Shown here: in pieces, positions 2,431 to 58,600 of the stretch
Numbering within the stretch: the stretch's first letter is position 1
Layout of the letters: every line of letters begins with the position of its first letter
Notes under the pieces: model-generated
What the model was told of the DNA's origin: nothing
What the model saw: the letters and a program-made list of their open reading frames with translations, nothing else
Databases searched by the model: none
Assembly: GCF_009914315.1 (NCBI RefSeq)
Contig: NZ_CP042596.1
Location: forward strand, 744,001-808,000
From: Granulicella sp. WH15
Lineage (GTDB): Bacteria; Acidobacteriota; Terriglobia; Terriglobales; Acidobacteriaceae
Direction of reading: 5' to 3'
DNA: 64,000 nt
Translations under genes and position numbers: made by a program

Positions 2431-2611
2431 TGTCCTGCCGGACGGGCCTCCTGCGCGGAGGGCGGTCACTTCGTGACTTTCATACTTGTCTGGGTGATTT
2501 AAAGAGCAAAGATCCTCCCGCTGGTCGGAAACGAAGATTGCTCGCTTCCGACCAGCGGGAGGACCTCAAAAAATCATCTCGGCTATGCAGCCCCGAGAAC
2601 GGTACGAAGTA
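2431..2611. repeat. Composite palindromic repeat, copy 1
   Basis: Full-length copy read on the minus orientation: the module GTCCGGCAGGAC/CCTCC...GGAGG is at the left, TCACTTCGTGA at 2467-2477, then the long hairpin and finally CCCCGAGAACGGTACGAAGTA. It lies between the RNase J stop codon and the alpha/beta hydrolase gene. Its right end abuts the rnj stop codon directly (GTACGAAGTA|CTA on the plus strand). Confidence 0.9.
2513..2563. terminator. 18-bp perfect hairpin within repeat copy 1
   Basis: Arms 2513-2530 and 2546-2563 are exact reverse complements (core CCTCCCGCTGGTCGG / CCGACCAGCGGGAGG) with a 15-nt loop. It sits about 50 bp downstream of the rnj stop on the minus strand, so it could end rnj transcription. 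There is no strong T tract, so the terminator role is inferred from position only. Confidence 0.45.
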
Positions 2612-4279
2612 CTAGATTTCCATGATGACGGGCATAATCAACGGCCTGCGGCTGGTGCTCTTCTGGATGAACCGCTTCAGGTCGTTGCGGATCTTCTCCT
2701 TGATGACGCCGTAGTCCTGCTTCTCTTCGGTGTTTGAGGAGTCCAGCGTCCGCTGCACGATGTTCCGCGCCTCGGCCATCACCTGCGCATCGTCAATCGC
2801 GAAACCGCGCACGACGATCTCCGGCTGGCTCTCTACGCGTCCGGTCCGCTTGTTGATCGCCAGGATCGGCAGCATAATGCCATCCTCAGACAGGTGCTTG
2901 CGGTCACGGATCACGACGTCCTCGACCACATCAATCGAGCCGCCCGAATCGATACAGATCCGCCCGGTCGTTACCTTGCCGTTCTTCTGCGCCGTGTCCT
3001 TGGTGAACTCCAGCACCTCGCCGTCTTCGAGCAGGATCGTCCGCTCCGGAATCCCCGTCGAAGCCGCCAGCTCGGCGTGCCGCTTCAGGTGGCGATAGTC
3101 CCCGTGGACCGGAATAAAGAACTTCGGCCGCACCAGGTTAATCATCATCTTCAGCTCTTCCTGGCTGCCGTGCCCGCTCACGTGGATCAGGCCGTTGGTG
3201 CCATCGTCGTGGATAACGTTGGCGTCGCGCCGCTCCAGGTGGTCGATCACCCGATAGATGGACTTCTCGTTGCCCGGAATGACGCGCGAGCTCATCAGCA
3301 CCGTATCGCCCGCGTCGATTTTGGCGAACTTGTGGTTGTTCACCGCCGCCCGGCTCAGCGCGCTCATCGGCTCGCCCTGAGTGCCCGAGATCATGATGCA
3401 GAGCTTATCCGGCGCGAAGTCGCGGATCTGCCCCGGATTGATGAGCAGCCCCTGCGGAATCTTCAGGTAGCCCAGGTCCTGCGCGATCTCGGTCGAGTTA
3501 TCCAGCGACCGTCCGATCACCGCAACCTTGCGCCCGTACTTGTGCGCCAGCTCCATCGCCAGGCTCAACCGGTGGATCGACGAAGAGAAGCAGCTAAAGA
3601 ACATCTTCTTCTTGGTCTGCGCGAAGATCTCATCGAGCCGCGGACGTACGGCCTTCTCGCTCGGCGTCCAGCCCTTGCGGTCGACGTTGGTGGAGTCCTG
3701 CAACAGCGCCAGCACGCCGCCCGTCTTGCCCAGCTCGGCGAAGGCCTGCAGGTCGAAGGGCCGCCCGTCGGTGGGAGAGAGGTCGATCTTGAAGTCGCCG
3801 GTATGGAGAATGATCCCCACCGGCGTATGGATGGCCAGCGCCACGCAGTCCACCAGCGAGTGCGTCACCCGGATGGGCATGATGGAGAACGGCCCCAGCG
3901 TAAACCGCTTGCCCGGCAGTATCTCGATCAGGTCGGCATCGTCCAGCAGGCCGTGCTCGTCCAGCTTGCCCTCGACGTAGGCGAGCGTGAACTCGGTGCC
4001 GTACACCGGCACGTTAAGCTCGGAGAGGATCCACGGCAGGCCGCCGATGTGGTCCTCGTGCCCGTGCGTCAGGATGATCGCCTTCACCTTGGACCGGTTC
4101 TCGGTCAGGTAGGAGATATCCGGAACCACGATATCGACACCAAGCAGTTCTTCTTCAGGAAACATCAGGCCGGCGTCGATGACGATAATGTCATCCTGCC
4201 AACGGAGCGCCATGCAGTTCATACCGAACTCGCCAAGGCCACCCAGCGGAATCATTCTTAATTTATCTAGACTCATCAA
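2612..4279 (-). CDS. rnj: Ribonuclease J
   Basis: A 555-residue metallo-beta-lactamase/beta-CASP ribonuclease, expected to carry out 5'-3' exonuclease and endonuclease steps in mRNA turnover and rRNA maturation. The zinc motif HGHEDHIGG is at about residues 74-82, with further metal ligands in the HTGDFK segment and the beta-CASP segments SGTQGEPMSAL and HVSGHGSQEEL. The RNase J C-terminal domain follows, ending in RPLIMPVIMEI. Length and order match family members. I chose the MMSLDKLRMIPLGGLGEFG start at 4279; a start one codon later is equally possible. The gene stands alone, with palindromic repeat copy 1 directly after its stop. Confidence 0.95.
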   Translation of the reverse strand: MMSLDKLRMIPLGGLGEFGMNCMALRWQDDIIVIDAGLMFPEEELLGVDIVVPDISYLTENRSKVKAIILTHGHEDHIGGLPWILSELNVPVYGTEFTLAYVEGKLDEHGLLDDADLIEILPGKRFTLGPFSIMPIRVTHSLVDCVALAIHTPVGIILHTGDFKIDLSPTDGRPFDLQAFAELGKTGGVLALLQDSTNVDRKGWTPSEKAVRPRLDEIFAQTKKKMFFSCFSSSIHRLSLAMELAHKYGRKVAVIGRSLDNSTEIAQDLGYLKIPQGLLINPGQIRDFAPDKLCIMISGTQGEPMSALSRAAVNNHKFAKIDAGDTVLMSSRVIPGNEKSIYRVIDHLERRDANVIHDDGTNGLIHVSGHGSQEELKMMINLVRPKFFIPVHGDYRHLKRHAELAASTGIPERTILLEDGEVLEFTKDTAQKNGKVTTGRICIDSGGSIDVVEDVVIRDRKHLSEDGIMLPILAINKRTGRVESQPEIVVRGFAIDDAQVMAEARNIVQRTLDSSNTEEKQDYGVIKEKIRNDLKRFIQKSTSRRPLIMPVIMEI

Positions 4280-4339
4280 CTCCCGAGTCTAACAGCTATG
4301 CGGTTTTGGGGCTTTTTAGCTTTGACGTGCGGGAGTTTT

Positions 4340-4432
4340 GTCGTTGTTTCCGAAGTAGGTCCAGGCTTTAGCCCGGACATCTCAAGTTGCCCCGAATGCG
4401 GGCTTTAGCCCGCGAGGTATGCTTTTCTTTCC
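4340..4432. repeat. GGGCTTTAGCCC-type repeat, copy D1
   Basis: Contains TTGTCGTTG, GTAGGTCC, GGCTTTAGCCCGGACAT and GCGGGCTTTAGCCCGCGAGGTATGCTTT. The two GGGCTTTAGCCC-like cores form short hairpins. The order of words matches the copies near 27.0, 29.4 and 59.9 kb, but D1 lacks the CATTCAGGAGCGAAGC portion. It lies in the 223-bp gap between rnj and a small membrane-protein gene. Confidence 0.8.
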
Positions 4433-4502
4433 CCAGCCACCAATCCGGGTGCCCATGTCTCGGGTCTGAGACATGGGTTTCAACCAAGGGTACCCTTCGA
4501 AG

Positions 4503-4691
4503 TTAAATCGAGCGCAGAGCCCGGGCGGGGAGCAGGAAGATCGCCGCAACCAGCCCAAAGACCCCGGTGACGACGATTCCGACCAGCCGGAACGGCAGCA
4601 GAAGCAGCCAAACGATGGGATAGAGCACCAGCGCCATCAGGGCGACCGGCCAGCAGATGACGAGCAGAACGCAGAAGAGCAGAAGTTTCAT
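4503..4691 (-). CDS. Small hydrophobic membrane protein (62 aa)
   Basis: A 62-residue, almost entirely hydrophobic product (MKLLLFCVLLVICWPVALMA... then LLLLPFRLVGIVVTGVFG) that would form two membrane helices, with a basic end (PARALRSI). The complementary AGGAAGCTGATCTCC lies upstream of the ATG and provides a plausible ribosome-binding site. I recognise no family. It could be a genuine small membrane protein or, less likely, chance coding potential; the hydrophobic composition on the correct strand favours the former. Confidence 0.6.
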   Translation of the reverse strand: MKLLLFCVLLVICWPVALMALVLYPIVWLLLLPFRLVGIVVTGVFGLVAAIFLLPARALRSI

Positions 4692-4775
4692 GGAGATCAG
4701 CTTCCTTTCCCCATCAGATACGCAGACGGCGGAACCGAAGTTCCGCCGTCTGCAATCATCCCATAGGAAATCGAG

Positions 4776-6636: not shown

Positions 6637-6877
6637 CGAAGGTACTTCGTACCGTTCTCGGGGAGGTATGGGCGGGATTATCTTCTGAGGGCCTTCCGCT
6701 GGTCGGGTACTTCGTACGGTTCTCGGGGCGGCAGGGAAGGGATCATCTGCATGGGGCCTTCCGCTGGTCGGCAGCGAGCATATTTTTGTTTCCGACCAAC
6801 GGGAGAGCCACGCGAAGCAGTAAAAAGGCGTGTAAACGCCCGCCCTCCGCGCAGGAGGCTCGTCCGGCAGGACAAGT
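6637..6877. repeat. Composite palindromic repeat, copy 2 (tandem 5' half)
   Basis: Plus orientation. The first part, GGTACTTCGTACCGTTCTCGG through CTTCCGCTGGTCGG, occurs twice in a row (about 6641-6706 and 6707-6771). It is followed by one right arm CCGACCAACGGGAG, the GGCGTGTAAACGCC hairpin and the CCTCCGCGCAGGAGG / GTCCGGCAGGAC module. It fills the gap between the dapA start and the stop of the DinB gene, and its right end stops 3 bp from that stop codon. Confidence 0.9.
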
Positions 6878-6879
6878 CT

Positions 6880-9336: not shown

Positions 9337-9777
9337 ATGCGTATCAACGCGTTTCTCTTTGAAAGCCCCATGTTCGCCATCACCCGCGCCGCACGCCGCT
9401 TCGACGCACTCGCGGCCCAGGCTCTCAGCGCCGAGGGGCTAAGCTTTCTCGAAGCCCTGGTGCTCGCGGCGGTCTTCTTCGAGTCGCCCCAGGTCATCAA
9501 GCCATCTCAGCTTGCCGAGACCTTCGGCACCACACGCGGCAACGTAAGCCACTGCATCTCATCGTTAGAAGCTCGCGGCCTGTTGCAACGCAAGATCGAC
9601 CCCGCCGACGCCCGAGCCTATTATCTGCACCTGAAACCGCAGGGCAAACGGGCCGCGTTACAGGTCATCGGTGCGCTCGACCGTTTGCAGCGCGGCTTCG
9701 AGAAGGAAGTCGGCAAGAGTGCCTTGAGCACCATGCTGCAAACACTGCGCAGGCTCGAAACGACTTACAACGACTAG
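9337..9777 (+). CDS. MarR-family transcriptional regulator
   Basis: 146 residues with a winged helix-turn-helix: KPSQLAETFGTTRGNVSHCISSLEARG (about 55-81) is the recognition-helix region and KIDPADARAYYLHL (about 86-99) the wing, both in MarR consensus form. AGGA stands 6 bp before the ATG. It is divergent from the TonB-dependent receptor, with a palindromic operator between them. The expected role is autoregulation plus repression of the receptor, released by a small ligand; the ligand is not predictable. A palindromic repeat (copy 3) begins right after the stop. Confidence 0.9.
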   Translation: MRINAFLFESPMFAITRAARRFDALAAQALSAEGLSFLEALVLAAVFFESPQVIKPSQLAETFGTTRGNVSHCISSLEARGLLQRKIDPADARAYYLHLKPQGKRAALQVIGALDRLQRGFEKEVGKSALSTMLQTLRRLETTYND

Positions 9778-9880
9778 TCCTGCCGGACGGGGCACTTCGT
9801 GCTGTATTCGGCTTCGCGTGGTCCTCCCGTTGGTCGGAATCAAACAATGTTCGCTGCCGCCCAACGGGAGAATTACGTGT
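9778..9880. repeat. Composite palindromic repeat, copy 3 (short)
   Basis: Minus-oriented, short copy: TCCTGCCGGACGGGGCACTTCGTGC, then GCTTCGCGTGG and the hairpin CCTCCCGTTGGTCGG ... CCGCCCAACGGGAG. It fills the gap between the convergent marR and aminopeptidase genes, starting at the marR stop and ending at the aminopeptidase stop. It may serve as a bidirectional terminator. Confidence 0.85.
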
Positions 9881-14622: not shown

Positions 14623-14801
14623 AAGTACTTCGGCACTTCGTGCGGTTCTCGGGGCTGCATGGGAGGGATCATGTTTTGAGGGCCTCCCGCTGGCTGGCAG
14701 CGAGCATCTTTTGATTCCGACCAACGGGAAGACACCATGCGAAGCTATAAAAAGGCGCGCAAACACCGCCCCGCTCGTAGCGGGCTCGTCCGGCAGGACA
14801 G
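14623..14801. repeat. Composite palindromic repeat, copy 4
   Basis: Plus-oriented full copy: AAGTACTT then GGCACTTCGTGCGGTTCTCGGGG, CCTCCCGCTGGCTGG ... CCGACCAACGGGAAG, a degenerate C hairpin GGCGCGCAAACACC, CCCGCTCGTAGCGGG and GTCCGGCAGGAC. Its D stem CCCGCT/AGCGGG differs on both sides from the CCTCC/GGAGG of other copies. It occupies most of the 304-bp gap upstream of asd and ends a few bases from the next gene's stop; the remainder shows nothing further. Confidence 0.9.
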
Positions 14802-14806
14802 TGTTT

Positions 14807-16001: not shown

Positions 16002-16023
16002 CGCAAAGCTCCCTTTATAAAGA

Positions 16024-16190
16024 CCTGTCCCGCCGGACGGGCCCGCTACGCGCGGGGCGGGCGTTCACGCGCCTTTTTACTGCTTCGCATGGTCCTCCCG
16101 TTGGTCGGAAACAAAAGATGCTCGCTGCCGACCAACGGAAGGCCCCATGCTTTTTACTTACCCATACCGCCCCGAGAACGGTACGAAGTA
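16024..16190. repeat. Composite palindromic repeat, copy 5
   Basis: Minus-oriented full copy: CCCGCTACGCGCGGG module, GCGTTCACGC hairpin, CCTCCCGTTGGTCGG ... CCGACCAACGGAAGG (T-A in the pair that is C-G in copies 1 and 12), then CCGCCCCGAGAACGGTACGAAGTA. It ends exactly at the stop codon of the isocitrate dehydrogenase gene, as copy 1 does at rnj. Confidence 0.9.
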
Positions 16191-17210
16191 CTAGCCGATT
16201 GCCGCGATGACCGCATCCGCAAAGGCCTTGGTGCCACTGTTGCCGCCGACATCCTTCGTCAGCGTCTTACCTTCGGCGTATACCGTCTCAAGCGCGGTTT
16301 GCACCTTCTCGGCCGTCGCAGGCTCGTCGATGTGGTGCAGCATCAGCACCGCCGACTGCAACAGCGCCGTCGGGTTCGCCTTATCCTGGCCCGCGATATC
16401 CGGAGCCGATCCATGCACAGCCTCGAAGATCGCGCACTCCAGCCCGATGTTCGCTCCCGGAACCAGACCCAGCCCGCCCACGAACGCCGAGCACAGGTCG
16501 CTCAGGATATCGCCGTACAGGTTCTCGGTCAGGATGATGTCGTACTGATAAGGGTTCAGCACCAGTTGCATACAGGTGTTGTCCACGATGTGCTCGGCAT
16601 AGGTCACCTCGGGAAATCCGGCGGCAACCTCCTGGCAGCACTTCAGGAACAGGCCATCCGACAGCTTCATGATGTTGGCTTTGTGGATGGCGTGAATCTT
16701 CTTGCGCCCATGCTTCTTCGCGTAGTCGAAGGCCGCCTTCGCGATCCGCGTCGAGCCCTTGCGCGTGATGATCTTCAGGCTCTGCGCCACGTCCGGCTGC
16801 ACCATCACCTCGAGTCCCGCGTACAGATCCTCGGTGTTCTCGCGGAAGATGATGAGGTCGATGTTCGGATAGTTCGTCTTCAGCCCCGGCAGCGACTTCA
16901 CCGGCCGGAAGTTCGAGAACAGGTCGAACTTCTTGCGCAGCGTCACGTTGATCGAGCTGAACCCGCCGCCGATGGGCGTCGTCACAGGCCCCTTCAGGGC
17001 GACACGATTCTGCTCAATCGACTCATATAGCGCCTTCGGGATGTACTCCCCGGTCTTCGCGAACGCGTCCGCGCCCGCATCGTAGCGGTGCCAGTCGAAC
17101 GAGCATCCGGTTTTCTTGCCAGCTGCCTCCAGAATCGAGACAACCGCGGACGAGACCTCGGGGCCGATGCCGTCCCCAGGGATCAGTGTGATCTTGTGTG
17201 CTTCGCTCAT
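16191..17210 (-). CDS. NAD-type isocitrate/isopropylmalate dehydrogenase
   Basis: 339 residues of the beta-decarboxylating dehydrogenase family. ITLIPGDGIGPEVS (about 7-20) opens the protein, the substrate motif FRENTEDLYAGLE (about 118-130) carries the arginine and the NTED sequence typical of isocitrate rather than isopropylmalate dehydrogenases, HKANIMKLSDG (about 175) follows, and ENLYGDILSDLCSAFVGGLG (about 230-249) supplies the metal-binding aspartates. The predicted reaction is isocitrate to 2-oxoglutarate with CO2 and NADH. No leu genes are adjacent, which supports isocitrate. The start overlaps the nrdR stop (ATGA), so the two are translationally coupled although functionally unrelated. 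Confidence 0.88.
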   Translation of the reverse strand: MSEAHKITLIPGDGIGPEVSSAVVSILEAAGKKTGCSFDWHRYDAGADAFAKTGEYIPKALYESIEQNRVALKGPVTTPIGGGFSSINVTLRKKFDLFSNFRPVKSLPGLKTNYPNIDLIIFRENTEDLYAGLEVMVQPDVAQSLKIITRKGSTRIAKAAFDYAKKHGRKKIHAIHKANIMKLSDGLFLKCCQEVAAGFPEVTYAEHIVDNTCMQLVLNPYQYDIILTENLYGDILSDLCSAFVGGLGLVPGANIGLECAIFEAVHGSAPDIAGQDKANPTALLQSAVLMLHHIDEPATAEKVQTALETVYAEGKTLTKDVGGNSGTKAFADAVIAAIG

Positions 17211-17689
17211 GCACTTCCTTTCTTATGCTTGTTTTCCCTGACGTTCAACAACTCTTCCAGCTCTGCCTTGAACTCCCGCACGTCCTTGAAGTCGCGGTAC
17301 ACGCTGGCAAACCGGATGTAGGCCACCGTGTCGATGCCCTTCAGCCGGTTCATAATCAACTCGCCGATCTCGGTCGTCGTGCGCTCGCGCTCGGGCGAAT
17401 CGACGACGAAGGCCTCGGTCTCATCGACGATCTCTTCGAGCTGGCTGGCGGAGACGTTGCGTTTCTGGCACGCCTGCATCAGTCCGCCCAGCACCTTCTG
17501 CCGGTCGAACTTCTCTCTGCGCGCGTCTTTTTTCACGACCATGTAGGGGATCTCGTCGATCCGCTCGTAGGTGGTAAACCGTTTATTGCATCGTTCGCAC
17601 TCGCGCCGTCGGCGGATGGAGTCCGCCTCTTTACTTTCGCGCGAGTCCACGACCCGATCCTGCCCGAAACCGCAATAAGGACACTTCAT
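17207..17689 (-). CDS. nrdR: Transcriptional repressor NrdR
   Basis: 160 residues. An N-terminal zinc ribbon with CPYCG (residues 3-7) and CERCNKRF (about 31-38) is followed by an ATP-cone domain (VVKKDARREKFDRQKVLGGLMQAC, about 53-76). NrdR senses (d)ATP and represses ribonucleotide reductase genes. The open frame continues upstream to 17941, but that extension is encoded by palindromic repeat copy 6; MKCPYCG at 17689 is the true start because the zinc ribbon begins there in the family. It overlaps the isocitrate dehydrogenase gene by 4 bp. No ribonucleotide reductase gene is in the window. Confidence 0.96.
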   Translation of the reverse strand: MKCPYCGFGQDRVVDSRESKEADSIRRRRECERCNKRFTTYERIDEIPYMVVKKDARREKFDRQKVLGGLMQACQKRNVSASQLEEIVDETEAFVVDSPERERTTTEIGELIMNRLKGIDTVAYIRFASVYRDFKDVREFKAELEELLNVRENKHKKGSA

Positions 17690-17713
17690 GGAGATAGGCC
17701 CGATTCTATCAGC

Positions 17714-17881
17714 AGTACTTCGTACCGTTCTCGGGGCTGCATGGGCAGGATTGACAGCAAAGGGCCTCCCGCTGGTCGGCAGCGAGCATATTTCTTTCCG
17801 ACCAACGGGAGGACCACGCGAAGCAGTAAAAAGGCGTGCAAACGCCCGCCCCGCGCGTAGCGGGCCCGTCCGGCAGGACAA
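17714..17881. repeat. Composite palindromic repeat, copy 6
   Basis: Plus-oriented complete copy, a good type example: AGTACTTCGTACCGTTCTCGG, CCTCCCGCTGGTCGG...CCGACCAACGGGAGG, ACGCGAAGC, AAAAAGGCGTGCAAACGCC, CCCGCGCGTAGCGGG and GTCCGGCAGGACA. It lies between the divergent starts of nrdR and the S53 protease gene, so it cannot be only a terminator; any promoter for either gene must sit within or around it. Confidence 0.92.
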
Positions 17882-17961
17882 AGCTTTTGTGGATGTTTTT
17901 TCTCCCCTCCAGCTACATCCCCAAACCTCCTCCGCATCCAATCAGCCACATGGAGGTTCCC

Positions 17962-19560
17962 ATGCCTGCTTCAGCCCGCTTCGCATCTCAACCCCGAGTC
18001 ACTCTTCCCGGCAGCGAACGATCCCCATTCGTCCCCGCAGCAGGAACTGGTGAGCCAACCCCGCACCCCACGGCCTCCAAGGTTACGGTCTCGGTCCTCG
18101 TGCGGCCCAAGCAGCCACTCGACCCCCGCACCCTGGGCCAGCTCGGCACCCGCCTGACCCGTGCCGCCTATGCCAAGCAGCATGGCCCTGACCCCGCATC
18201 GCTCCAACTGGTCCGCGACTTCGCCGCCGAGTACGGTCTCACCACCGAGACCACCCCCGTCCCCCACACCCTCCACCTCACCGGCACCTGCGCCGCCATC
18301 CAGAAGGCCTTCGGCGTCCAGCTAAAGCAGCACACCATCGCGGGCCGTCAGTGCCGCCTCCGCGAAGGAGCGATTACCCTTCCGAATGAGCTGGATGGCC
18401 ACGTCCTGGCCGTCCTCGGCCTCGACACCCGCCCACAGGCCAGGCCCCACTTTCGCGTAGCCCGCGCCGAGGCCGTCAACACTTCCTACACCCCCGTCCA
18501 GGTCGGCCAGCTCTACGGCTTTCCCGCCGGAGCCACCGCCCCCGGACAGACCATCGGCATCCTCGAGCTGGGCGGTGGCTACCGCACCGCCGACCTCACC
18601 GCCTACTTCAAAACCCTCGGCCTGCCCGCGCCCAGCGTCACCGCCGTAGCGGTCGACGGCGGCAAGAACACCCCCGGCGACGCCAACGGGGCTGACGGCG
18701 AGGTCATGCTCGACATCGAGGTCTGCGCGGCCATCGCTCCCGGCGCGAAGATCGTCGTCTACTTCGCCCCCAACACCGATCAGGGCTTCATTGACGCTAT
18801 CTCCACCGCCGTCCACGACACCACCCACAAGCCCGGCATCCTCTCCATCAGTTGGGGCGGCCCGGAGTCCTCGTGGACCAAGCAGTCCACCACCGCGCTC
18901 GACGCCTCCTGCCAGGCCGCCGCCGCCGTCGGCGTCACCATCACGGTGGCCGCGGGCGATAGCGGCTCCTCGGACGGCGGCACGGGCAATAACGTCGATT
19001 TCCCCGCGTCCAGCCCGCACGTCCTCGCCTGCGGCGGCACCAAGCTCGAAGGCAGTGGCACGACCATCACTTCGGAGGTCGTCTGGAACGAGACCGCCGC
19101 CGATGAGGGCGCGACCGGAGGCGGTGTCAGCACGGTCTTCCCGCTGCCCACATGGCAGCAAAACGCCAACGTCCCCAGCAATGGCCGTGGCGTTCCCGAC
19201 GTCGCAGGAGACGCCGACCCCTCCACCGGCTACACCATCCGCGTCGACGGCGAGAGCGCGGTCATCGGCGGCACCAGCGCCGTCGCGCCGCTCTGGGCGG
19301 GCCTCATCGCGCTCGCCAACCAGCAGAACGGCACCGACGCGGGCTTCCTCAACCCCACCCTCTACACGGCCCCGTCCGCCCTCCGCGACATCACCTCCGG
19401 CAATAACGGAGCCTACACCGCCGGTCCCGGCTGGGATGCCTGCACCGGCCTGGGCAGCCCCATCGGCACAGCCGTCATCGAAGCTCTCGCTGGCATTAGT
19501 AGCAAGCCGGTCAAGAAACCCGTCGGCAAGACGCCCAAGCCGGTGAAAAAGCGCGCCTAA
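17962..19560 (+). CDS. Sedolisin/kumamolisin-like serine-carboxyl protease (S53)
   Basis: About 532 residues. An N-terminal pro-domain (VTVSVLVRPKQPLDPRTLG to LRLR/VLGLDTRP, about 25-165) precedes the peptidase domain. The catalytic Glu and Asp lie in DGEVMLDIEVCAAIAPGAK (about 250-268), the oxyanion Asp in TVAAGDSGSSDG (about 325-336) and the Ser in VIGGTSAVAPLWAGL (about 430-444). A C-terminal Asp-rich calcium site and a lysine/proline tail (KPVGKTPKPVKKRA) follow. S53 enzymes work at acid pH, fitting an acidophilic soil bacterium. GGAGG 5 bp before the ATG at 17962 decides the start. No clear signal peptide is visible, so how it is exported is unclear. A DUF1440-type gene follows after 11 bp. 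Confidence 0.9.
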   Translation: MPASARFASQPRVTLPGSERSPFVPAAGTGEPTPHPTASKVTVSVLVRPKQPLDPRTLGQLGTRLTRAAYAKQHGPDPASLQLVRDFAAEYGLTTETTPVPHTLHLTGTCAAIQKAFGVQLKQHTIAGRQCRLREGAITLPNELDGHVLAVLGLDTRPQARPHFRVARAEAVNTSYTPVQVGQLYGFPAGATAPGQTIGILELGGGYRTADLTAYFKTLGLPAPSVTAVAVDGGKNTPGDANGADGEVMLDIEVCAAIAPGAKIVVYFAPNTDQGFIDAISTAVHDTTHKPGILSISWGGPESSWTKQSTTALDASCQAAAAVGVTITVAAGDSGSSDGGTGNNVDFPASSPHVLACGGTKLEGSGTTITSEVVWNETAADEGATGGGVSTVFPLPTWQQNANVPSNGRGVPDVAGDADPSTGYTIRVDGESAVIGGTSAVAPLWAGLIALANQQNGTDAGFLNPTLYTAPSALRDITSGNNGAYTAGPGWDACTGLGSPIGTAVIEALAGISSKPVKKPVGKTPKPVKKRA

Positions 19561-20375: not shown

Positions 20376-20437
20376 GCAAAAGCGCCCTAGCGCCGGGCGG
20401 GCGGCACTTCGTGCGGTACTGGACGCTTCGCGTGTTT
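20376..20437. repeat. Short palindromic repeat, copy C1
   Basis: AAAAGCGCCCTAGCGCCGGGCGG, then hairpins GCACTTCGTGC and ACGCTTCGCGT. Lies between the convergent DUF167 and flippase-like genes. Near-identical to the segment at 29551-29613 and related to part of the long composite element. Confidence 0.85.
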
Positions 20438-21475
20438 CTAGCCGATCACGGCTTCTTCGGCCTCTTCACTGCGCCGCGCCAGCGCCTCCAGCGAGATCCC
20501 CTCCACCTTCGCATACACCAGCCCCACCGGAATCACGCCCATCGTCGTAATCAACCAAAGCATCAGCCCCGAGCTGACCGCCAGCTCCTGCGGAATCCCA
20601 AACAGCAGCGTCAGCGCCGCAATCGTCATCGCCTGCGCCCCGCCGCCCACGCCCGGCAGTTGCACCAGCGATCCCACCACGCTGAACCCCATCAGCAGCA
20701 GCGTATGCGCAACGGTCAGGTGCGAGACCGGAGCCGGAAACGCCTTCATCACCAGCACATACGAGACCGCAATCGTTGCCCAAAGCACAATGCTGATCCC
20801 CGCCACCGAGGCAAAATCCCCCCATCCCGCGATCACATCCAGTCCTTCTCGAAACGCGTGAACCTTCTCCGCAACTGATGCCCCGGCGTTCTTCGAGACG
20901 ATTCCGACGAACCCACTCATCAGCCGCGCCATGACGCCGCCCGCCACCCGCACGCTGACCACGAACGCTGCGACAATCAGCGTCAGCCCCGCGATCACAT
21001 AGCCCACCTGATGAAACCGTTCATGGAACGGCAGCGAATCCAGCCCCGGCGAGACCGCCAGATTCAGCCCGAAGAGCAGCCCGAACGCCCCCAGATCGAA
21101 GACCCGCTCCACCGCCACCACGGCGATCTGCGAGGCAAAGCTCAGCCCTGTCCGCCGCGCCACCAGCAGAGGTCGGATTAGCTCGCCAATGCGCCCAAAG
21201 AGAGAAAGCCCGGTAAATCCGACAAACTGCGAGCCGACCAGTTGCCACCAGCGCGCCGTCGAAGGCGTCCGCCGCAGAAACACCGCCCAGCGCACCGCCC
21301 GCAGTACGTAGTTCACGTAGATGACGAGCAGCGCCGCCAGCAGCATCCGCCAGTCAGCCGTCCTCAGGCTGCGCCCGAAGCCCGCCCAGTCGAAGTGCGA
21401 CGTGTGCAGCTTCCACGCGACGAAGCCCGCCAGCGCGGCCAGCAGAACCCACGGCAGCGCCTTCCGCACACTCAC
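20438..21475 (-). CDS. Flippase-like integral membrane protein (LPG synthase TM/UPF0104)
   Basis: 345 residues with roughly seven to eight hydrophobic segments, belonging to the lysylphosphatidylglycerol synthase transmembrane/UPF0104 group. Typical landmarks are the N-terminal tryptophan-rich amphipathic region, LGSQFVGFTGLSLFGRIGELIRPLLVAR (about 75-110, with the conserved G-R-x-G-E-x-x-R-P pattern), AVVAVERVFDLGAF, and the glycine-rich LPGVGGGAQAMTIAALTLLFG (about 275-296). Relatives are lipid flippases or polyisoprenyl-linked sugar transport proteins; there is no aminoacyltransferase domain. Its start overlaps the stop of the transglycosylase gene by 4 bp, hinting at a role in the cell envelope. 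Confidence 0.85.
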   Translation of the reverse strand: MSVRKALPWVLLAALAGFVAWKLHTSHFDWAGFGRSLRTADWRMLLAALLVIYVNYVLRAVRWAVFLRRTPSTARWWQLVGSQFVGFTGLSLFGRIGELIRPLLVARRTGLSFASQIAVVAVERVFDLGAFGLLFGLNLAVSPGLDSLPFHERFHQVGYVIAGLTLIVAAFVVSVRVAGGVMARLMSGFVGIVSKNAGASVAEKVHAFREGLDVIAGWGDFASVAGISIVLWATIAVSYVLVMKAFPAPVSHLTVAHTLLLMGFSVVGSLVQLPGVGGGAQAMTIAALTLLFGIPQELAVSSGLMLWLITTMGVIPVGLVYAKVEGISLEALARRSEEAEEAVIG

Positions 21476-23130: not shown

Positions 23131-23150
23131 ATCTCATTCTCACATCAGAG

Positions 23151-23246
23151 AGCATCTTTATTTCCGACCAGCGGGAGGACCACGCGAAGCTTTAAAAAGG
23201 CGTGCAAACGCCCGCCCTCCGCGTAGGAGGCCCGTCCGGCAGGACA
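23151..23246. repeat. Composite palindromic repeat, copy 7 (3' half only)
   Basis: Plus-oriented half element starting in the long-hairpin loop (GAGCATCTTTATTTCCGACCAGCGGGAGGACC), then ACGCGAAGC, AAAAAGGCGTGCAAACGCC, CCTCCGCGTAGGAGG and GTCCGGCAGGACA. The left half of the hairpin is missing. It lies upstream of the HAD phosphatase gene in a divergent intergenic gap. Confidence 0.9.
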
Positions 23247-23408
23247 GCCGTTGTTTTAGGAGCACGGCTTTAGTCGTGCCCTTAACGAGCCGGGCTGTAT
23301 TCTGATCTGGATACGAGTCAGGCACCTGCGGCACGGCTTCCCGTACGGATGTCACAGGTTTAAGGGTAATCAAATGAACATCTTGCGTAACCGCGCCGGG
23401 GAGTGCCG
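23247..23408. other. Intergenic region upstream of the hydantoinase pair
   Basis: Contains a short hairpin GCACGGCTTTAGTCGTGC (about 23262-23279) that resembles the GGCTTTAGCC cores of the D-type repeats, then sequence presumably carrying the promoter of the hyuA gene. GGGGAG stands just before the ATG at 23409. No further element is recognisable. Confidence 0.4.
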
Positions 23409-26974: not shown

Positions 26975-27132
26975 GCCGTTGCTTGTTTTCTTGGTTGTCA
27001 TTCAGGAGCGAAGCGGAGGAATCTGCTTTTGTCGTTGTTCTTGCCGTTGCTTCTGGGGTAGGTCAGGGCTTTAGCCCGGACATTAAAACTCGCCACAGAA
27101 GCGGGCTTTAGCCCCCGAGGTATGCTTTCTTC
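26975..27132 (+). repeat. GGGCTTTAGCCC-type repeat, copy D2 (left of eutBC)
   Basis: GTTGCTTGTTTTCTTGG, GTCATTCAGGAGCGAAGCGG, AGGAATCTGCTT, a run of TTGYYGTTG-like units, GTAGGTCAGGGCTTTAGCCCGG, AAAACTCGCCACAGAAGCGG, and GCCCCCGAGGTATGCTTTCTT. An inverted copy with almost the same sequence lies at 29300-29490, so eutBC is bracketed by inverted repeats. Confidence 0.92.
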
Positions 27133-27181
27133 AATTCGCCACAAATCCGGCGATACAACAGGAATCGCTTACTATGCAGGC

Positions 27182-29550: not shown

Positions 29551-29613
29551 GCAAAAGCGCCCTTGCGCCGGGCGGGCGGCACTTCGTGCGGTTCTGGACG
29601 CTTCGCGTGTTTT
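29551..29613. repeat. Short palindromic repeat, copy C2
   Basis: GCAAAAGCGCCCTTGCGCCGGGCGG, hairpins GCACTTCGTGC and ACGCTTCGCGT, then GTTTTT. Nearly identical to copy C1. It lies at the stop of the NCS2 permease gene, in the convergent gap with eutC. Confidence 0.85.
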
Positions 29614-34958: not shown

Positions 34959-35153
34959 AGGGTGCCTCTCCACGGATGAATGTTCGGGATGCTGCTGGTG
35001 ATACAGGACTGCGCGCCATGCTGCTGAAGCGCTGGTGGAAAGACGATAGCGGCCCCGTCGAGGGGCGATCCGTGCAAGGTTCTGTGATGTTGTGAAATGA
35101 CAATAAACCATCGCCGGGGCTGTGCCTAGAATTAATTCAAGAGGAAAAAACAT
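34959..35153. other. Divergent intergenic region, receptor promoter side
   Basis: Holds the presumed promoter of the Oar-like receptor gene. Apart from the receptor ribosome-binding site (GGAGAGG on the minus strand) and an AT-rich stretch near 35125-35155, I see no recognisable element before repeat copy 8 begins. Confidence 0.35.
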
Positions 35154-35318
35154 TGTCTTGCCGGATGTGACTCCTACGCGTCGGGTGGGTGTTTTCATTC
35201 CTCTTTGAAAGCTTCGCGTGGACCTTTCCGTCGGCGGTAAAAATGCTTGCTGCCGACCAACGGAAGGCCCTCAGAAGATCATTCTGCCCATACAGCCCCG
35301 AGAACGGTACGAAGTACA
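35154..35318. repeat. Composite palindromic repeat, copy 8
   Basis: Minus-oriented, somewhat diverged copy: GTCTTGCCGGATGTGACTCC, GCTTCGCGTGG, CCTTTCCGTCGGCGG ... CCGACCAACGGAAGG, then CAGCCCCGAGAACGGTACGAAGTAC. The right end stops 11 bp before the mfd start codon, so the repeat forms the mfd leader. Confidence 0.88.
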
Positions 35319-35328: not shown

Positions 35329-39004
<3,676 letters not shown>

Positions 39005-39010
39005 AGTTTG

Positions 39011-39150
39011 TTCTGCCGGACGGGGCACTTCGTATGGTTTCGGTTTCGTGTAACCCGCTGGTCGGAAGGAAAATTCTCGCTGCCGACCAGCGGGAGGCCC
39101 TATGCTGACGATTTACCCAGATCGCCCCGAGAACGGCACGAAGTGCTTTG
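39011..39150. repeat. Composite palindromic repeat, copy 9
   Basis: Minus-oriented: TCTGCCGGACGGGGCACTTCGTATG, CCCGCTGGTCGGAAG ... CCGACCAGCGGGAGG, ending in CGCCCCGAGAACGGCACGAAGTGC. Stem variants GGCAC/GTGC replace the GTAC/GTAC of other copies. It lies between mfd and the nucleoside hydrolase gene, both on the plus strand. Confidence 0.88.
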
Positions 39151-43092: not shown

Positions 43093-43102
43093 GTTCGAGC
43101 AA

Positions 43103-43215
43103 GAGGGCCTCTCGCTGCCGACCAGCGGGAGGCCCTTTGCTGTTTCTACTACCCCGACAAGTATGAAAGTCACGAAGTGACCGCCCTCCGCGTAGGAGGC
43201 CCGTCCGGCAGGGCG
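43103..43215. repeat. Composite palindromic repeat, copy 10
   Basis: Plus-oriented: a collapsed long hairpin (GGGCCTCTCGCTG ccga CCAGCGGGAGGCCC), then GTCACGAAGTGAC, CCTCCGCGTAGGAGG and GTCCGGCAGG. It lies between the convergent galU and LOG-family genes. Confidence 0.88.
43106..43136 (+). terminator. galU terminator hairpin
   Basis: GGGCCTC-t-CGCTG (43106-43118) pairs with CAGCG-g-GAGGCCC (43124-43136) around a five-base loop, followed by TTTGCTGTTT. It begins 14 bp after the galU stop, a good position for an intrinsic terminator built from the repeat. Confidence 0.65.
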
Positions 43216-43217
43216 TC

Positions 43218-51346: not shown

Positions 51347-53278
<1,932 letters not shown>

Positions 53279-53283
53279 CGAGA

Positions 53284-53375
53284 ATCTTTGATCCCGACCA
53301 ACGGGAGGACCACGCGAAGCCGAGTACAGCACGAAGTGCCGCCCGCCCTCCGCGCAGGAGGCCCGTCCGGCAGGA
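53284..53375. repeat. Composite palindromic repeat, copy 11 (3' half)
   Basis: Plus-oriented: CCGACCAACGGGAGGACC, ACGCGAAGC, then GCACGAAGTGC, CCTCCGCGCAGGAGG and GTCCGGCAGGAC. The left half of the long hairpin is absent. It sits between the convergent ABC-F and phosphoesterase genes and abuts the phosphoesterase stop. Confidence 0.88.
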
Positions 53376-54128
53376 CTATCTGCCTTCGCGCAGCCGCAGG
53401 GCTAGCCGTTCGGGCAATCCGGCCATCAGGATGCGGCCCTGCGCACGAACCACGTCGTAGGGCACGCGATGGAAGGTAATCGTGGCGGCCTCGGTGTCGT
53501 AGATGGCATAGGCAGCGCGCCAGTCGTAGTCCCGGGGCTGGCCCACCGAGCCGGGGTTAATCAACTGCCGTGTCTCCGCCGGAATCTCGAAGACCCAGGA
53601 GCCTGCCTCGTTGGCGCTGGCGTACGCGGGCCGCAGCTCGTGCCAGTCGTGCTCCTTCTGCGAAAACCCTCCCTGCAGATGAGTGTGCCCAAAGAAGGTG
53701 ATGGAGGTCGTCATCTGCTGCAGCGGAGCCCACGCATCGCGCATACTCAGGATGTACTGGTCTTCATTGAGCGGTGAGCCATGGGCGCAGGTGACGCCGG
53801 GTTGCGCCGGATGCAGCGGCCCCTGCTCAAGCGCCCGCAGCCATTCCGTATTCTCGGCCGTCAGCTCCTCGCGGGTCCACAGCGCGGCGGCGCGGGCGAC
53901 GGGGTTGAACCCATTCGGCGAGGTCAGCCCGCAGCAGACGCGGTCGTGGTTGCCGCGCACGGTCAGGCTCGAGAGCGGCCGGATAAGGTCGATGACCTCG
54001 TTCGGGCTGGCCCCATAGCCCACGATATCGCCGAGGTTCCAGAGCGCGTCCCACCCGCTGGCAGCGTCGAGGACGGCCTGAAGGGCTTCAAGGTTTCCGT
54101 GGATGTCGGAGAGGACTAAGGCACGCAT
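53376..54128 (-). CDS. Calcineurin-like metallophosphoesterase (YfcE-like)
   Basis: 250 residues with the metal-binding motifs in order: LSDIHGNLEALQAV (D-x-H, about 7-20), GDIVGYG (about 34-40), RGNHDRVC (about 59-66) and ITFFGHTHLQGGF (about 143-155). The C-terminal NPGSVGQPRD is typical of the YfcE/MJ0936 subgroup, whose members hydrolyse phosphodiesters in vitro. Substrate unknown. Single gene; 105 bp separate it from the next ABC ATPase gene on the same strand. Confidence 0.93.
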   Translation of the reverse strand: MRALVLSDIHGNLEALQAVLDAASGWDALWNLGDIVGYGASPNEVIDLIRPLSSLTVRGNHDRVCCGLTSPNGFNPVARAAALWTREELTAENTEWLRALEQGPLHPAQPGVTCAHGSPLNEDQYILSMRDAWAPLQQMTTSITFFGHTHLQGGFSQKEHDWHELRPAYASANEAGSWVFEIPAETRQLINPGSVGQPRDYDWRAAYAIYDTEAATITFHRVPYDVVRAQGRILMAGLPERLALRLREGR

Positions 54129-55138: not shown

Positions 55139-57070
55139 ATGAGGATCTGCGGCAAAGGTCGGGTCGCGTCGGCGGTCGCCGGAGTCGTTGCGCTTGCCTT
55201 GCCCGTTGCAGTCCCCCTTGCCGCCCAGATGCACGCTGTCAAAAAGCCCGAGACCGTGGTGCGGGCGGTGGGGGTCTACGAGTGGACCGGCGACGTGGCT
55301 AAGCCCGCGGCCAGTCGCCTCATCCCGGTCACGCTCTTCATCGACGGCAGTTTGCAGGACGCTGGAGTCTACCTTGCCCGTCCCGTCCCCATGGCGCTCG
55401 AGACCGGAACAATCTTCGAGCTGGACCAGTCCGGCGTGCCTAAAGGGCTGCTGGATCTTGCATTTGCGCGTCACCTGCAACCGGCCGAGGAGAGTTCGGC
55501 GGCTCCGTACGACGACGGCTGGTTTGGCTACGGGCAGTACAAGGCGCTGCCCACGCCCAAGCTGACGCCGCCTTCGGGCAAGGTGCGTCTCTCGAAGGGC
55601 ACGGTGCAGAGCAGCAAGCCGGATACTGCGCGTCCGCATTTTTCTTCAGACAACAAGAGTCCGGACAGCACCGCAAACAAAAGTGCGAGCACCACGGCCA
55701 ACAGCGATCCGGACCGCCCGACGATGCGGCGGCGGGACGACTCCGGCAGCACTTCGACGTCCACGCCCTCGGCCTCTTCGAGCACCCCCACAACGACGGC
55801 TTCAACCCCCAAGCCGGACGATGATCCGAACCGTCCGACAATGAAACGCCGCGACGACTCGGCTTCGAGTACTCCCTCAACTCCTGCGGCTTCTACAACT
55901 TCGCCCCCTTCCACACCAAGCACGACGGCTTCTACAAGCAAGTCGGACGACCCCGACCGTCCGACGATGAAGAGAAAGTCGGATTCCGGCAGCGATAGCT
56001 CCTCGGCAGGCTCTTCGGATTCAAAGACCTCCAGCAGCGACTCTGACCCCGACCGTCCGACGATGAAGCGCCGAAGCGATTCCGGTAGCACGACGGCATC
56101 CAGCAGTACCCCCGCCGATGACCCGGACCGTCCGACGATGAAGAGAAGGTCGGATTCCGGCAGCGATAGCTCCTCGGCAGGCTCTTCGGATTCAAAGACT
56201 TCCAGCAGCGACTCCGACCCCGACCGCCCGACGATGAAGCGTCGGAGCGACTCCGGCAGCACCACGGCGTCGAGCGACTCCCCGGCCGACGACCCGGACA
56301 GGCCTACTTTAAAAAAGCGTAGCCCAGCCGAGAAAAAGGCGGCGCAGAAGGGAGGCGGAGCGTCGGTCTCCGAGGTCGGCTCCTTGAATGACGACCCCAA
56401 CCGCCCCAACCTGCACCGTGGCAAGCCCACCCACGCCATGACCGACGACGACCTGCCCAAACTGATCGGGCTGCCGCCGGACCTGCACCAGATGGTCGCG
56501 GTATCGGACGCGGTCGACCGCCCCCAGCACGACTTCGCCCGTGCCTGGGAGAGCAAGGAGGAGCAGGAGACAGTGCTGGGCAAGATGCGCGATCTGGCCC
56601 GGAATCGGCTGAAGACATACGCCGGAGTCGCTCCCGCTTCGCCGCCGACCAAGCCAATAGTCGTTCGTACCGGAGCCCATCGGAGCAAGGCCGTAACTCC
56701 GCCACCTCCTCCTCCGCTGCCGCTGTCGGATGAGGTGTTGAAGGCTTACACCCTGAGTTACGGCGGCGCGCCGACCTACAGCTTCTCGGCCTCGTCGCCG
56801 AGCCCGGATGGAGCCACCGTCCAGTACGTGACGGTGATTGCCCAGGCCGACGCCAACAACGACCTGCGGGTAGCGCTCGACAACGTCACCGACTCGCGGC
56901 ACCTGGACCGCACGCCCCGGCTGCGGCTGGTGGACGTGGTGGATGCGGAGGCATCGAACCGGGCCAGCCTGCTGGTCGAGCTGCGCGCGCAGCACAGCCG
57001 TACCTTTGCCCTATACCGCCTCATCGGGGCGCAGGCCGAGCAGGTCTTTTCCACTGGAAGCACGCAGTAA
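55139..57070 (+). CDS. Secreted Ser/Thr-rich repeat protein, unknown
   Basis: 643 residues. A signal-like N-terminus (SAVAGVVALALPVAVPLAAQ) is followed by a conserved region (VVRAVGVYEWTGDVAKPAASRLIPVTLFIDG, about 40-70), then from about 190 to 410 eight copies of DPDRPTMKRR-like units spaced by Ser/Thr/Asp-rich linkers, and a C-terminal domain (LSYGGAPTYSFSASS ... AEQVFSTG, about 530-643) with beta-strand character. The units read SDPDRPTMRRR, DDPNRPTMKRR, DDPDRPTMKRK and so on to DDPNRPNLHRGKP. I recognise no family. Composition suggests an extracytoplasmic protein with a flexible, acidic-basic repeat tether. It is divergent from the orphan ATPase gene. Confidence 0.8.
   Translation: MRICGKGRVASAVAGVVALALPVAVPLAAQMHAVKKPETVVRAVGVYEWTGDVAKPAASRLIPVTLFIDGSLQDAGVYLARPVPMALETGTIFELDQSGVPKGLLDLAFARHLQPAEESSAAPYDDGWFGYGQYKALPTPKLTPPSGKVRLSKGTVQSSKPDTARPHFSSDNKSPDSTANKSASTTANSDPDRPTMRRRDDSGSTSTSTPSASSSTPTTTASTPKPDDDPNRPTMKRRDDSASSTPSTPAASTTSPPSTPSTTASTSKSDDPDRPTMKRKSDSGSDSSSAGSSDSKTSSSDSDPDRPTMKRRSDSGSTTASSSTPADDPDRPTMKRRSDSGSDSSSAGSSDSKTSSSDSDPDRPTMKRRSDSGSTTASSDSPADDPDRPTLKKRSPAEKKAAQKGGGASVSEVGSLNDDPNRPNLHRGKPTHAMTDDDLPKLIGLPPDLHQMVAVSDAVDRPQHDFARAWESKEEQETVLGKMRDLARNRLKTYAGVAPASPPTKPIVVRTGAHRSKAVTPPPPPPLPLSDEVLKAYTLSYGGAPTYSFSASSPSPDGATVQYVTVIAQADANNDLRVALDNVTDSRHLDRTPRLRLVDVVDAEASNRASLLVELRAQHSRTFALYRLIGAQAEQVFSTGSTQ
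55961..56302 (+). repeat. In-gene tandem duplication, period 171 bp
   Basis: 55961-56131 and 56132-56302 are two consecutive 57-codon units, nearly identical over the first ~110 bp and more diverged after that. Most differences seen in the first part are at third codon positions (ACC/ACT, TCT/TCC, CGT/CGC), with one K-to-R change. Each unit carries two DPDRPTMKRR motifs. Confidence 0.85.
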
Positions 57071-57238
57071 CAGCAGAAAGCAACCCCTTGAAATACAAGA
57101 ATTCCCGGGTACTTAAGTGCTTAGGTATCAAGCGTGATCCCCTTTTTGAAGCACCATTGTTGCAGCAGTCACATCCCCTTCATCTTGTGGGGAAATACTT
57201 GCAGCGAAAGGTAACCTAAGGCACGGGGAGGGGGTTCT

Positions 57239-58411
57239 ATGAGCCAGTCGAGCATCTCATATTGGTGGCGCGAGCCGAAGGCGACCGAAGGTTTTCGTAC
57301 CGGGGTCTCGTTGCACAGCCACACCAGCATGTCGCGGGAGACGCTCGACTTCATCGCGGAGCTCTCGAGCGACTGGCGCTGGCTGCAGCGTGTGATGCGT
57401 TGGGCCGAGGACCGCTCGGCGCGCTGCTCGGGCATCCGTCCCAACTACGCGGCCAGCTACTGGACCCCACCGTTGACGCCGCGTCTGGCTTTTGACCTGG
57501 AGCGTACGCAGGTGGAAGAGAAGCTGCAACTGGCGTCCCTGGTCTCGATCACAGATCACGACGACATCCGCGCCCCGATGCTGCTGCGCTCGATCGACAG
57601 CGCCCGGCACATCCCGGTCTCGCTGGAGTGGACGGTGCCGTACGGAGCCACCGCATTCCACCTCGGCGTCCACAACCTGCCCAGCGCCACTGCCTTGGAG
57701 TGGATGGTGCGGCTGGAGGCCTTCACGGCGATGAAGTCGTCCGAGCAGCCCGCGGGGATGCTGACGGCGATGCTGGCCGAGCTCGACGAGCTGCCCGGCG
57801 TGCTCATCGTCTTCAACCACCCGCTCTGGGATCTCTACCGCATCGGCAACGCCAAGCATGAGGCGCTGGTCAACGACTTTCTGGCGGTGAACGGCCAGTT
57901 CATCCACGCGCTGGAGCTGAACGGCCTGCGCGATTGGAAGGAGAATCGCGAGATCTCGACGCTGGCGGGCAAGTGGAACCAACTGGTAATCTCGGGCGGC
58001 GACCGCCACGGGGTGGAGCCGAACGCGAACGTGAACCTGACCCACGCGACCAGCTTCACCGAGTTCGTCTACGAGGTGCGGCGCGAGCGGATCTCGCATG
58101 TGCTCTACATGCCGCAGTACGCCGAGCCGTGGAAGCACCGTATCCTGCAGTCGACGCTGGACGCGATCCGCGACTACCCGCACTTCCCCGAAGGCTCGCA
58201 GCGCTGGGATGAGCGCGTCTTCCACCCCGACTCGAAGGGCGAGATCCGCCCGCTCTCGACGCTGTGGAACGACGGTCAGGCCCCGGTTTATCTGCGGTTC
58301 ATCCTGAACGCGGTTCGTATGATGGGCGCGGCTCCGGTCTCGGGCGGCCTGCGCATGGCATGGAGCGACACCAGCGAGATGCGCGCCGCGCTGAGCAAGC
58401 TAGACGCATAG
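57239..58411 (+). CDS. PHP-domain protein (putative metal-dependent phosphoesterase)
   Basis: 390 residues. Motifs characteristic of the PHP superfamily are visible in order: SLHSHTSMSRE (H-x-H, about 25-35), LVSITDHDDI (D-H-D, about 100-109), SLEWTVPYG (Glu, about 123), IVFNHPLWD (His, about 190) and ISGGDRHGV (Asp and His, about 250). This is a full set of ligands for a multi-metal site, so an active hydrolase is likely. The rest of the protein (about 270-390) is not familiar. Substrate unknown. A GGGGAGGGGG-rich stretch stands before ATG 57239. A GT4 glycosyltransferase gene follows on the same strand, past repeat copy 12. Confidence 0.78.
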   Translation: MSQSSISYWWREPKATEGFRTGVSLHSHTSMSRETLDFIAELSSDWRWLQRVMRWAEDRSARCSGIRPNYAASYWTPPLTPRLAFDLERTQVEEKLQLASLVSITDHDDIRAPMLLRSIDSARHIPVSLEWTVPYGATAFHLGVHNLPSATALEWMVRLEAFTAMKSSEQPAGMLTAMLAELDELPGVLIVFNHPLWDLYRIGNAKHEALVNDFLAVNGQFIHALELNGLRDWKENREISTLAGKWNQLVISGGDRHGVEPNANVNLTHATSFTEFVYEVRRERISHVLYMPQYAEPWKHRILQSTLDAIRDYPHFPEGSQRWDERVFHPDSKGEIRPLSTLWNDGQAPVYLRFILNAVRMMGAAPVSGGLRMAWSDTSEMRAALSKLDA

Positions 58412-58600
58412 CACTTCGGCACTTCGTGCGGTTCTCGTTGCGGTATGGGCGGGATTCTCTTCTGAGGTCCTCCCGCTGGTCGGAAACGAGCATTTTGTTT
58501 CCGACCAGCGGGAGGACCGTTGCCTCTTGAGTCATCGAGACAAGGTATACGCGTCACGAAGTGACCGCCCTCCGCGTAGGAGGCCCGTCCGGCAGGACAA
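58412..58600. repeat. Composite palindromic repeat, copy 12
   Basis: Plus-oriented full copy beginning right at the PHP gene stop: GCACTTCGGCACTTCGTGCGG, GTTGCGGTATGGGCGGGATTC, the long hairpin, then GTCACGAAGTGAC, CCTCCGCGTAGGAGG and GTCCGGCAGGACA. It lies between two plus-strand genes. Confidence 0.92.
58466..58518. terminator. 22-bp perfect hairpin within repeat copy 12
   Basis: Arms 58466-58487 and 58497-58518 are exact reverse complements over 22 bp, with a 9-nt loop (GAGCATTTT). The core is CCTCCCGCTGGTCGG / CCGACCAGCGGGAGG. It is 55 bp downstream of the PHP gene stop and could terminate that transcript; a T tract is lacking. Confidence 0.5.

Follow-up and report, generated by a model that had tools for sequence, protein, structure and literature searches.

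Intergenic hairpin repeats in Granulicella sp. WH15: anatomy, inheritance and possible origins

The window analysed here is a stretch of 64,000 nucleotides (nt), positions 744001-808000 of contig NZ_CP042596.1 (4,673,153 bp) of Granulicella sp. WH15, and between its genes lie twelve copies of a dispersed repeat built of small hairpins. The original prediction had put the repeat at twelve places from the letters, and the element was found at all of them (motif positions by regular expression, arms by profile), with the hairpins it named present there. The ordered row in which it set these hairpins is better described as two outward arms around a central stem, and two of the hairpins are variable, GGCGTGCAAACGCC occurring also with GTGA and GTAA loops and CCTCCGCGTAGGAGG also as CCCGCGCGTAGCGGG and other stems.

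Twelve copies and the anatomy of the element

The arms are of kinds A, B and C. Outward, the A arm reads GCGAAGC, then GGCGT(GNRA)ACGCC, then a second hairpin and finally GTCC(GGCA)GGAC; the B arm has GTCAC(GAA)GTGAC in the third place, and the end of the C arm is G(C/T)AC(GAA)GT(G/A)C. On the outward strand the common loops of the arm hairpins have G as their first and A as their last base, and the tip is a 4-bp stem, GTCC/GGAC, with a loop that is mostly GGCA. In these terms the copies in the window are as follows.

2424..2612, minus strand: B-C element, B arm 2431-2527 on the left, C arm 2548-2612 on the right
6642..6879, plus strand: C-C-A element, tandem C arms 6642-6706 and 6707-6771, A arm 6792-6873
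9777..9872, minus strand: A arm 9778-9837 on the left with central stem, second arm truncated
14623..14806, plus strand: C-A element, C arm 14633-14693, A arm 14717-14799
16017..16191, minus strand: A-C element, A arm 16027-16108, C arm 16128-16191
17715..17887, plus strand: C-A element, C arm 17715-17779, A arm 17798-17879, adjoining nrdR
23147..23250, plus strand: half element, A arm 23164-23245
35146..35317, minus strand: A-C element, A arm 35155-35226, C arm 35253-35317
39003..39147, minus strand: C arm 39083-39146 on the right, with a short variant left arm unmatched by the arm profiles
43093..43217, plus strand: B arm 43119-43212 with a remnant of the central stem
53277..53376, plus strand: half element, A arm variant in which GCACGAAGTGC replaces the GNRA-loop hairpin
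58412..58608, plus strand: C-B element, C arm 58419-58483, B arm 58502-58599

The tandem half described earlier at 6637 is the C-C-A arrangement by arm profile, and the copies called half elements at 23151 and 53284 are indeed single-armed, a list that was incomplete in that those at 9778, 39011 and 43103 likewise have one profile-matched arm, despite which they retain part of the second side. Several copies lie tight against genes: the C tip of the first overlaps, by its last base, the stop codon of an RNase J-like gene (2612-4255), that of 16017..16191 does the same with the stop of gene 16191-17210, which from its protein read by eye we take to be isocitrate/isopropylmalate dehydrogenase-like, the third copy adjoins the stop of a MarR family gene (9337-9777), and the last takes up most of the room that separates genes 57239-58411 and 58623-59834.

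Genome-wide the repeat is abundant, and it proved neither limited to a few copies nor assignable to a known repeat family, the outcomes against which the original prediction had staked itself. The genome has 148 exact matches to the tip 12-mer GTCCGGCAGGAC, 73 of them forward and 75 reverse, and 3 to the reversed pattern, and BLAST with the copy at 17700-17885 over the whole genome gave 364 candidates, 40 of them scored, with at least 43 matches. Eighty evenly spread stretches of 20 kb were sampled (1.6 Mb, 34% of the genome), and a profile built on 29 seed copies recognised 113 copies there at E<1e-3, which extrapolates to about 330 for the genome. Arm profiles recognised 188 arms in 123 elements of the sample and window, one sampled stretch overlapping the window and being counted twice: 37 elements are A-C, 29 A alone, 27 C alone, 12 B-C, 9 inverted C-C, 5 B alone, 3 A-C-C and 1 tandem C-C. 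C arms are the most frequent in WH15 (102 of 188) and account for 1 of 72 arms near the origin of the related genomes G014, G025 and G032. The element measures roughly 170 letters in WH15, where A and C tips are not inverses of each other; the intact form in relatives is A-B or B-B with inverted tips, GTCCTGCCGGACGGGC...GCCCGTCCGGCAGGAC, and full elements there span 165-238 bp (median 193 bp, n=41). Among the first 100 tips listed in G014 there are 19 close pairs, all pointing outward, and 18 of these are spaced 178-213 nt apart.

A related arm ending, GGCACTTCGTGC with GGGCGGGCGG and GCTTCGCGTG, lies at 20376-20444, 29551-29619 and 61433-61501; elsewhere in the genome it is joined to C tips, and it probably belongs to the same element family. 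The window also holds a second dispersed repeat, of GGGCTTTAGCCC palindromes (4338-4433, 27041-27136 and 59979-60013), with a weak origin gradient, a third containing GGAGCGAAGCGGAGGAATC (26988-27044 and 59910-59966), and 57- and 171-nt repeats within a called gene at 55705-56287.

Pairing, inheritance and change at fixed sites

Pairing is kept in the stems as the sequence changes. Across 29 aligned copies 98.1% of cells pair, against 94.9% in shuffles, and doubly changed cells number 38 against 13.4, with none of 500 shuffles as high; pairs with two-sided change (4 against 3.1) are hardly in excess. Folding as DNA gave z scores of -2.87 for 17715-17887 and -7.76 for the full element of locus L113.

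As far as searched the family is restricted to one genus. BLAST matches occurred in 22 of 61 genomes, being 22 of the 37 in the genus of WH15 (itself included) and 0 of the 24 outside, and the exact 16-mer GTCCTGCCGGACGGGC is present in 26 of 62 genus genomes in up to 239 copies. Named relatives were located through the dehydrogenase gene beside the element, the best 80 loci being kept. By eye, the nrdR gap is occupied in three of eight, by a whole element in Granulicella sp. L60 (L130) and by one arm each in Edaphobacter lichenicola X5P2 (L129) and Granulicella sp. S190 (L147), and does not hold it in five (L138, L146 G. rosea, L125, L127 and L132). On the far side of this gap (17660-18100) the gene seems, also by eye, to differ between WH15 and the element-carrying relatives, so that a rearrangement breakpoint may lie at the element.

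Among the close species G014, G025 and G032 (median protein identity 92-96%, reciprocal best hits) the positions are mostly common. Syntenic gaps gave 9 shared and 2 in G025 only for G025/G032 (n=52), 8 shared, 5 in G025 only and 1 in G014 only for G014/G025 (n=87), and 7 shared with none differing for G014/G032 (n=37). Differences in presence between close species, for which the original prediction had suggested looking, therefore exist, and by eye at the junctions they include at least one internal deletion and one gain-like case. In case 1 G032 is without the element middle, between GCGC repeats, and in case 7 G025 is without one arm, between TGTCC repeats; arms are lost by deletion at short direct repeats in the aligned cases, and junctions other than those of cases 1, 2 and 7 are less clear by eye. 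In G014 a parS-like palindrome, TGTTCCACGTGGAACA, stands near 425 kb on C1 (local positions 274077-274152 in the joined region), in a gap that holds an element in G025 and a remnant in G032.

Substitutions were counted in gaps where both copies are recognisable, a choice favouring conserved hairpins, and pooled over the three overlapping orthologous comparisons; the counts for G025/G032 alone stand in brackets.

Tip stem: 7/234 (1/84)
Tip loop: 2/117 (1/41)
Third hairpin stem: 8/200 (2/80)
GAA loop: 0/60 (0/24)
Central stem: 24/252, of which 15/84 in G014/G025 (2/96)
Second hairpin stem: 98/300 (32/110)
Second hairpin loop: 19/150 (5/55)
Spacer: 87/368 (20/144)
Outside: 91/313 (41/116)

In the stems of the tip and of the third hairpin 3-4% of positions differ, whereas spacer and flank reach 24-29%, and each copy therefore appears to be under constraint at its own site. 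Divergence at third codon positions is 14% in G025/G032, 25% in G014/G032 and 23% in G014/G025 (18-23 equal-length genes). Whole-element identity is not clearly above that of other DNA in the same gaps (88% vs 81%, 82% vs 85%, 81% vs 79%), and the constraint is therefore on parts.

The second hairpin moves among discrete stem alleles, mostly without loss of pairing. Its perfect stems fall into few types (CCTCC, CCCGC, CTCCC, CCCAC, CGCCC and CCGCC), and WH15 has 45 perfect stems among 71, where re-pairing halves from different copies yields 21.1 (maximum 32 in 1000 trials). Of 27 orthologous arm comparisons 3 had identical stems, 7 one-sided and 17 two-sided changes, and in five two-sided G025/G032 cases 22 of 25 pairs stay Watson-Crick against 8.0 after equally many random changes (maximum 17 in 20,000). 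Inward of the hairpin, the next 20 nt remain orthologous (similarity 0.95, 0.88 and 0.86 against 0.60-0.65 for random arms; n=10, 8 and 9) and the stem in the same comparisons is much nearer random (0.73, 0.68 and 0.63 against 0.59-0.60), which indicates that the second hairpin turns over faster than its neighbours; orthologues have the allele in common at 0.50, 0.38 and 0.22, against 0.13-0.18 for random arms. Exchange between copies in short tracts may well account for this, template switching within the palindrome being a rival source of the change. Such an allele-switching hairpin could serve as a natural readout of short-tract exchange between repeats. The alleles of an element's two arms are not anti-correlated (4 of 20 the same, 3.9 expected).

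Explanations for the family

These features are probably those of an old, non-autonomous repeat population resembling REPINs or BIMEs (bacterial interspersed mosaic elements), REPINs being doublets of repetitive extragenic palindromes (REPs), and one now mostly inherited vertically. Its unit would be the arm, a polar row of small hairpins, and two arms set head-to-head and inverted around a central stem would make the intact element; it would have spread in the past as non-autonomous mobile DNA whose hairpins a putative enzyme handled as single strands, and selection for some use of the hairpins to the host, at the ends of genes or on the strand being replicated, may now keep its copies in place. 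IS200/IS605-type movement leaves no target duplication, and the 41 full elements, some of them mutually orthologous, show no excess of 2-9 nt direct repeats at offsets 0-12.

A number of results weigh against such an origin, and of the mobile REP-, BIME- or MITE-like family first proposed (MITE, miniature inverted-repeat transposable element) what stands is the high-copy intergenic hairpin family and not its mobility. As proposed at the outset, the window has no transposase partner: the two Y1 transposase hits of WH15, at 529168 and 1879404, both lie outside it, flanked by other palindromes by eye, and we take these genes to be of the TIRYT kind. A transposase flanked by the same hairpins, for which the prediction had suggested looking, did not appear at 11 Y1 loci, where there was no arm match and only two lone tips with 2 mismatches, tips of that sort being at chance level in other loci. 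Y1 hits occur in 49 of 60 genus genomes and in none of the element carriers G014, G028, G002 and G029, all with BLAST matches to the element; G028 is without the exact tip, so its version has diverged. The sample holds no near-identical copies (highest pairwise identity 0.959 among 34 A-C copies). Case 2, in which the G025 element is gain-like by eye, replaced about 55 nt at a gene 3' end rather than simply splitting its target, and the last codons now lie inside the element. Constraint at fixed sites is not what one would expect of selfish copies, and the constraint itself was read from gaps whose choice favours conserved hairpins. Pair types in the 29 copies are not above shuffles (15 vs 15.7), and mismatches point to no clear folded strand, G-T exceeding A-C by cells (25 vs 11, P 0.03) but not by positions (10 vs 10).

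It seems unlikely that the element is instead replication-linked structured DNA, consisting of selection-held sites densest at the origin, with fork-directed arm loss and the second hairpin as a rapidly exchanged tag (C5/G5 stem, one odd pair, short-tract swaps). With rising distance from dnaA (at 442 in WH15) elements per 100 kb run 17.5, 11.8, 6.2, 5.9, 2.8 and 1.8, a tenfold fall (rho -0.55, or -0.46 as a partial correlation controlling for GC, codon typicality and number of gaps) that is still seen when 35 codon-typical stretches are taken alone (rho -0.67). The sampled stretches have their GC-skew extremes at 4.26 and 2.04 Mb, which places the origin only roughly at 0. The related arm ending labelled D8b gave rho -0.44. 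In G066 (dnaA at 1822526) 35 single exact tips between 0.25 and 1.45 Mb point toward the origin and 7 away, among the tips listed (those up to 1.857 Mb, both strands being assumed complete there), where a tip counts as single if no second exact one survives beside it; of the 35, at least 9 lie in elements that are two-armed by profile, a figure covering the minus-strand tips and not the 7 plus-strand ones. Listed tips up to 1.857 Mb compare with the rest of that genome as 48:22 vs 53:62 (P 0.004), and half elements, in stretches chosen from the tip listing and so biased by choice, stand at 17 toward and 0 away left of the origin and 7 toward and 3 away to the right. A strand bias over all listed G066 tips was set aside as partly an artefact of which minus-strand tips are among them. 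The complete 49-tip subset leans the same way but not significantly (P 0.24-0.55, depending on the terminus assumed), as do single tips in G014 (P 0.16), and WH15 single tips have no significant bias; near-origin single arms toward and away number 7:4 in G014, 10:3 in G025 and 4:2 in G032, which have sites in common and are not independent, and 15:11 in WH15. Gradient and tip direction together are a possible readout of replication-linked loss.

A selected RNA element, whose hairpins would end transcription or shield the message at mRNA 3' ends and which would be copied by recombination, is rather unlikely. Of 123 elements 121 were placed in gaps between genes and 2 at stretch ends; by another criterion 4 of 126 overlap a called gene start, and distances to gene starts are approximate because the gene caller was home-made. 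The gap classes (56 tandem, 44 convergent and 21 divergent, where gap numbers predict 70.2, 22.9 and 27.9, P 6e-6) enrich the convergent sites this reading would want, and 42 of the 56 in tandem gaps are nearer the stop. Read inward, the A arm has a hairpin that resembles a terminator and carries a T run (2 of the 5 hits lie there, with 1.6 expected overall), and at least 46 of 56 A-arm loops are GNRA, an RNA loop motif. However the arms in tandem gaps follow no order set by transcription (A-C 9, C-A 7), 21 elements sit in divergent gaps, and the B and C arms are without the T run. Among the arms whose tip could be recognised (165, or 154 without duplicates) 45 C arms face a stop codon; the tip directly adjoins the codon in 13, overlaps it by one base, the last of the stop (TA|G), in 12, and is one base off in 3. 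DNA besides the element amounts to 50 nt in 44 convergent gaps against 153 nt in 142 element-free ones (P 5e-7), is no different in tandem gaps (118 vs 125 nt, P 0.27) and differs marginally in divergent gaps (196 vs 248 nt, P 0.06). Deletions may have started at the tip and stopped at the stop codon.

Decidedly unlikely is a MITE of a cut-and-paste insertion sequence with a DDE transposase, for which the inverted tips would be terminal inverted repeats. The relatives' full copies do have such ends at a fairly constant length, and the C-A copies of WH15, with their unlike tips, do not; neither is there the direct-repeat excess expected of target duplication. Of 77 close element pairs, some counted twice, 3 (2 distinct) are half facing half, and the genes between them, the only pairs whose proteins were read, appear to be purK, purE and glycosidase-like. 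A parent transposon with the same ends was not seen in these few pairs, no whole-genus scan having been made.

That the repeat is a chromosome-structure site, for gyrase, a nucleoid protein or the replication fork, and hence dense near the origin, is very unlikely. The fall from 17.5 to 1.8 per 100 kb would suit it, as would the G066 single tips pointing mostly toward the origin and the weaker trends of unrelated repeats in the same stretches (GGGCTTTAGCCC rho -0.22, GGAGCGAAGCGG -0.18, D8 -0.20). Against this, density follows GC and codon typicality (rho 0.65 and 0.66), so that an older backbone near the origin may explain the gradient; the dnaA bins of G014 (250 kb) hold 22 and 14 listed tips vs 2-14 in others, one distant bin also having 14; and origin-directed single tips are significant in G066 only. 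A terminator-only role is ruled out by the gap classes and the arm order, in agreement with the original prediction, all of tandem, convergent and divergent gaps being occupied.

Known repeat systems

The evidence supports a hairpin family absent from Rfam (no match at gathering score in the window) and from the literature searched, and confined to one genus as searched. No recognised description of it was found in that literature, including the parts consulted of PMC12306157, PMC3174227, PMC3116915, PMC8049555 and PMC3733652; Granulicella aggregans does figure in a table of predicted REPs (PMC12306157).

The GTAG REPs and REPINs linked to RAYT transposases offer a close comparison. As in these the repeat consists of high-copy extragenic palindromes, with inverted doublets forming a hairpin with conserved ends, and it does not fit a RAYT-driven REP family as far as searched: the foot of the palindrome carries no GTAG consensus but A(A/G)GTCTTT outside A and B tips, the letters GTAG occurring inside the second hairpin when its loop is GCGTA, and no RAYT flanked by the same repeat was found at the 11 Y1 loci. 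REPINs as REP doublets forming hairpins, in the parts consulted of PMC3116915, resemble it in their inverted conserved ends, extragenic position, variable spacer with pairing kept by compensatory changes, and single ends read as remnants; unlike them it is about 193 bp long, has a row of small hairpins per arm besides the central stem and a second hairpin with discrete alleles, and no RAYT partner was found.

The CGTC REPs, with a CGTC end, stems of 8-9 bp, A-T first pairs and mostly CCA tails in the parts consulted of PMC3733652, are likewise hairpin repeats without a dedicated transposase, and a C before the tip gives CGTC here too; the 4-bp GTCC/GGAC stem sets this element apart. TIRYT-associated terminal repeats come from the same phylum, Acidobacteria (again the parts consulted of PMC3733652), and WH15 has two Y1 genes, though the hairpins flanking them are, by eye, other palindromes.

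BIMEs are mosaic and of alternating orientation, as the arms are here, tandem arms included; they differ in sequence, and the present element has one central stem and is found in one acidobacterial genus as searched. The BIME is named in the part consulted of PMC2817692. REP-type repeats have been studied largely through the RAYT enzyme, and here is a large population in carriers without a detected Y1 transposase, with hairpins kept at fixed sites, so that it becomes testable whether the host gains anything from such repeats.

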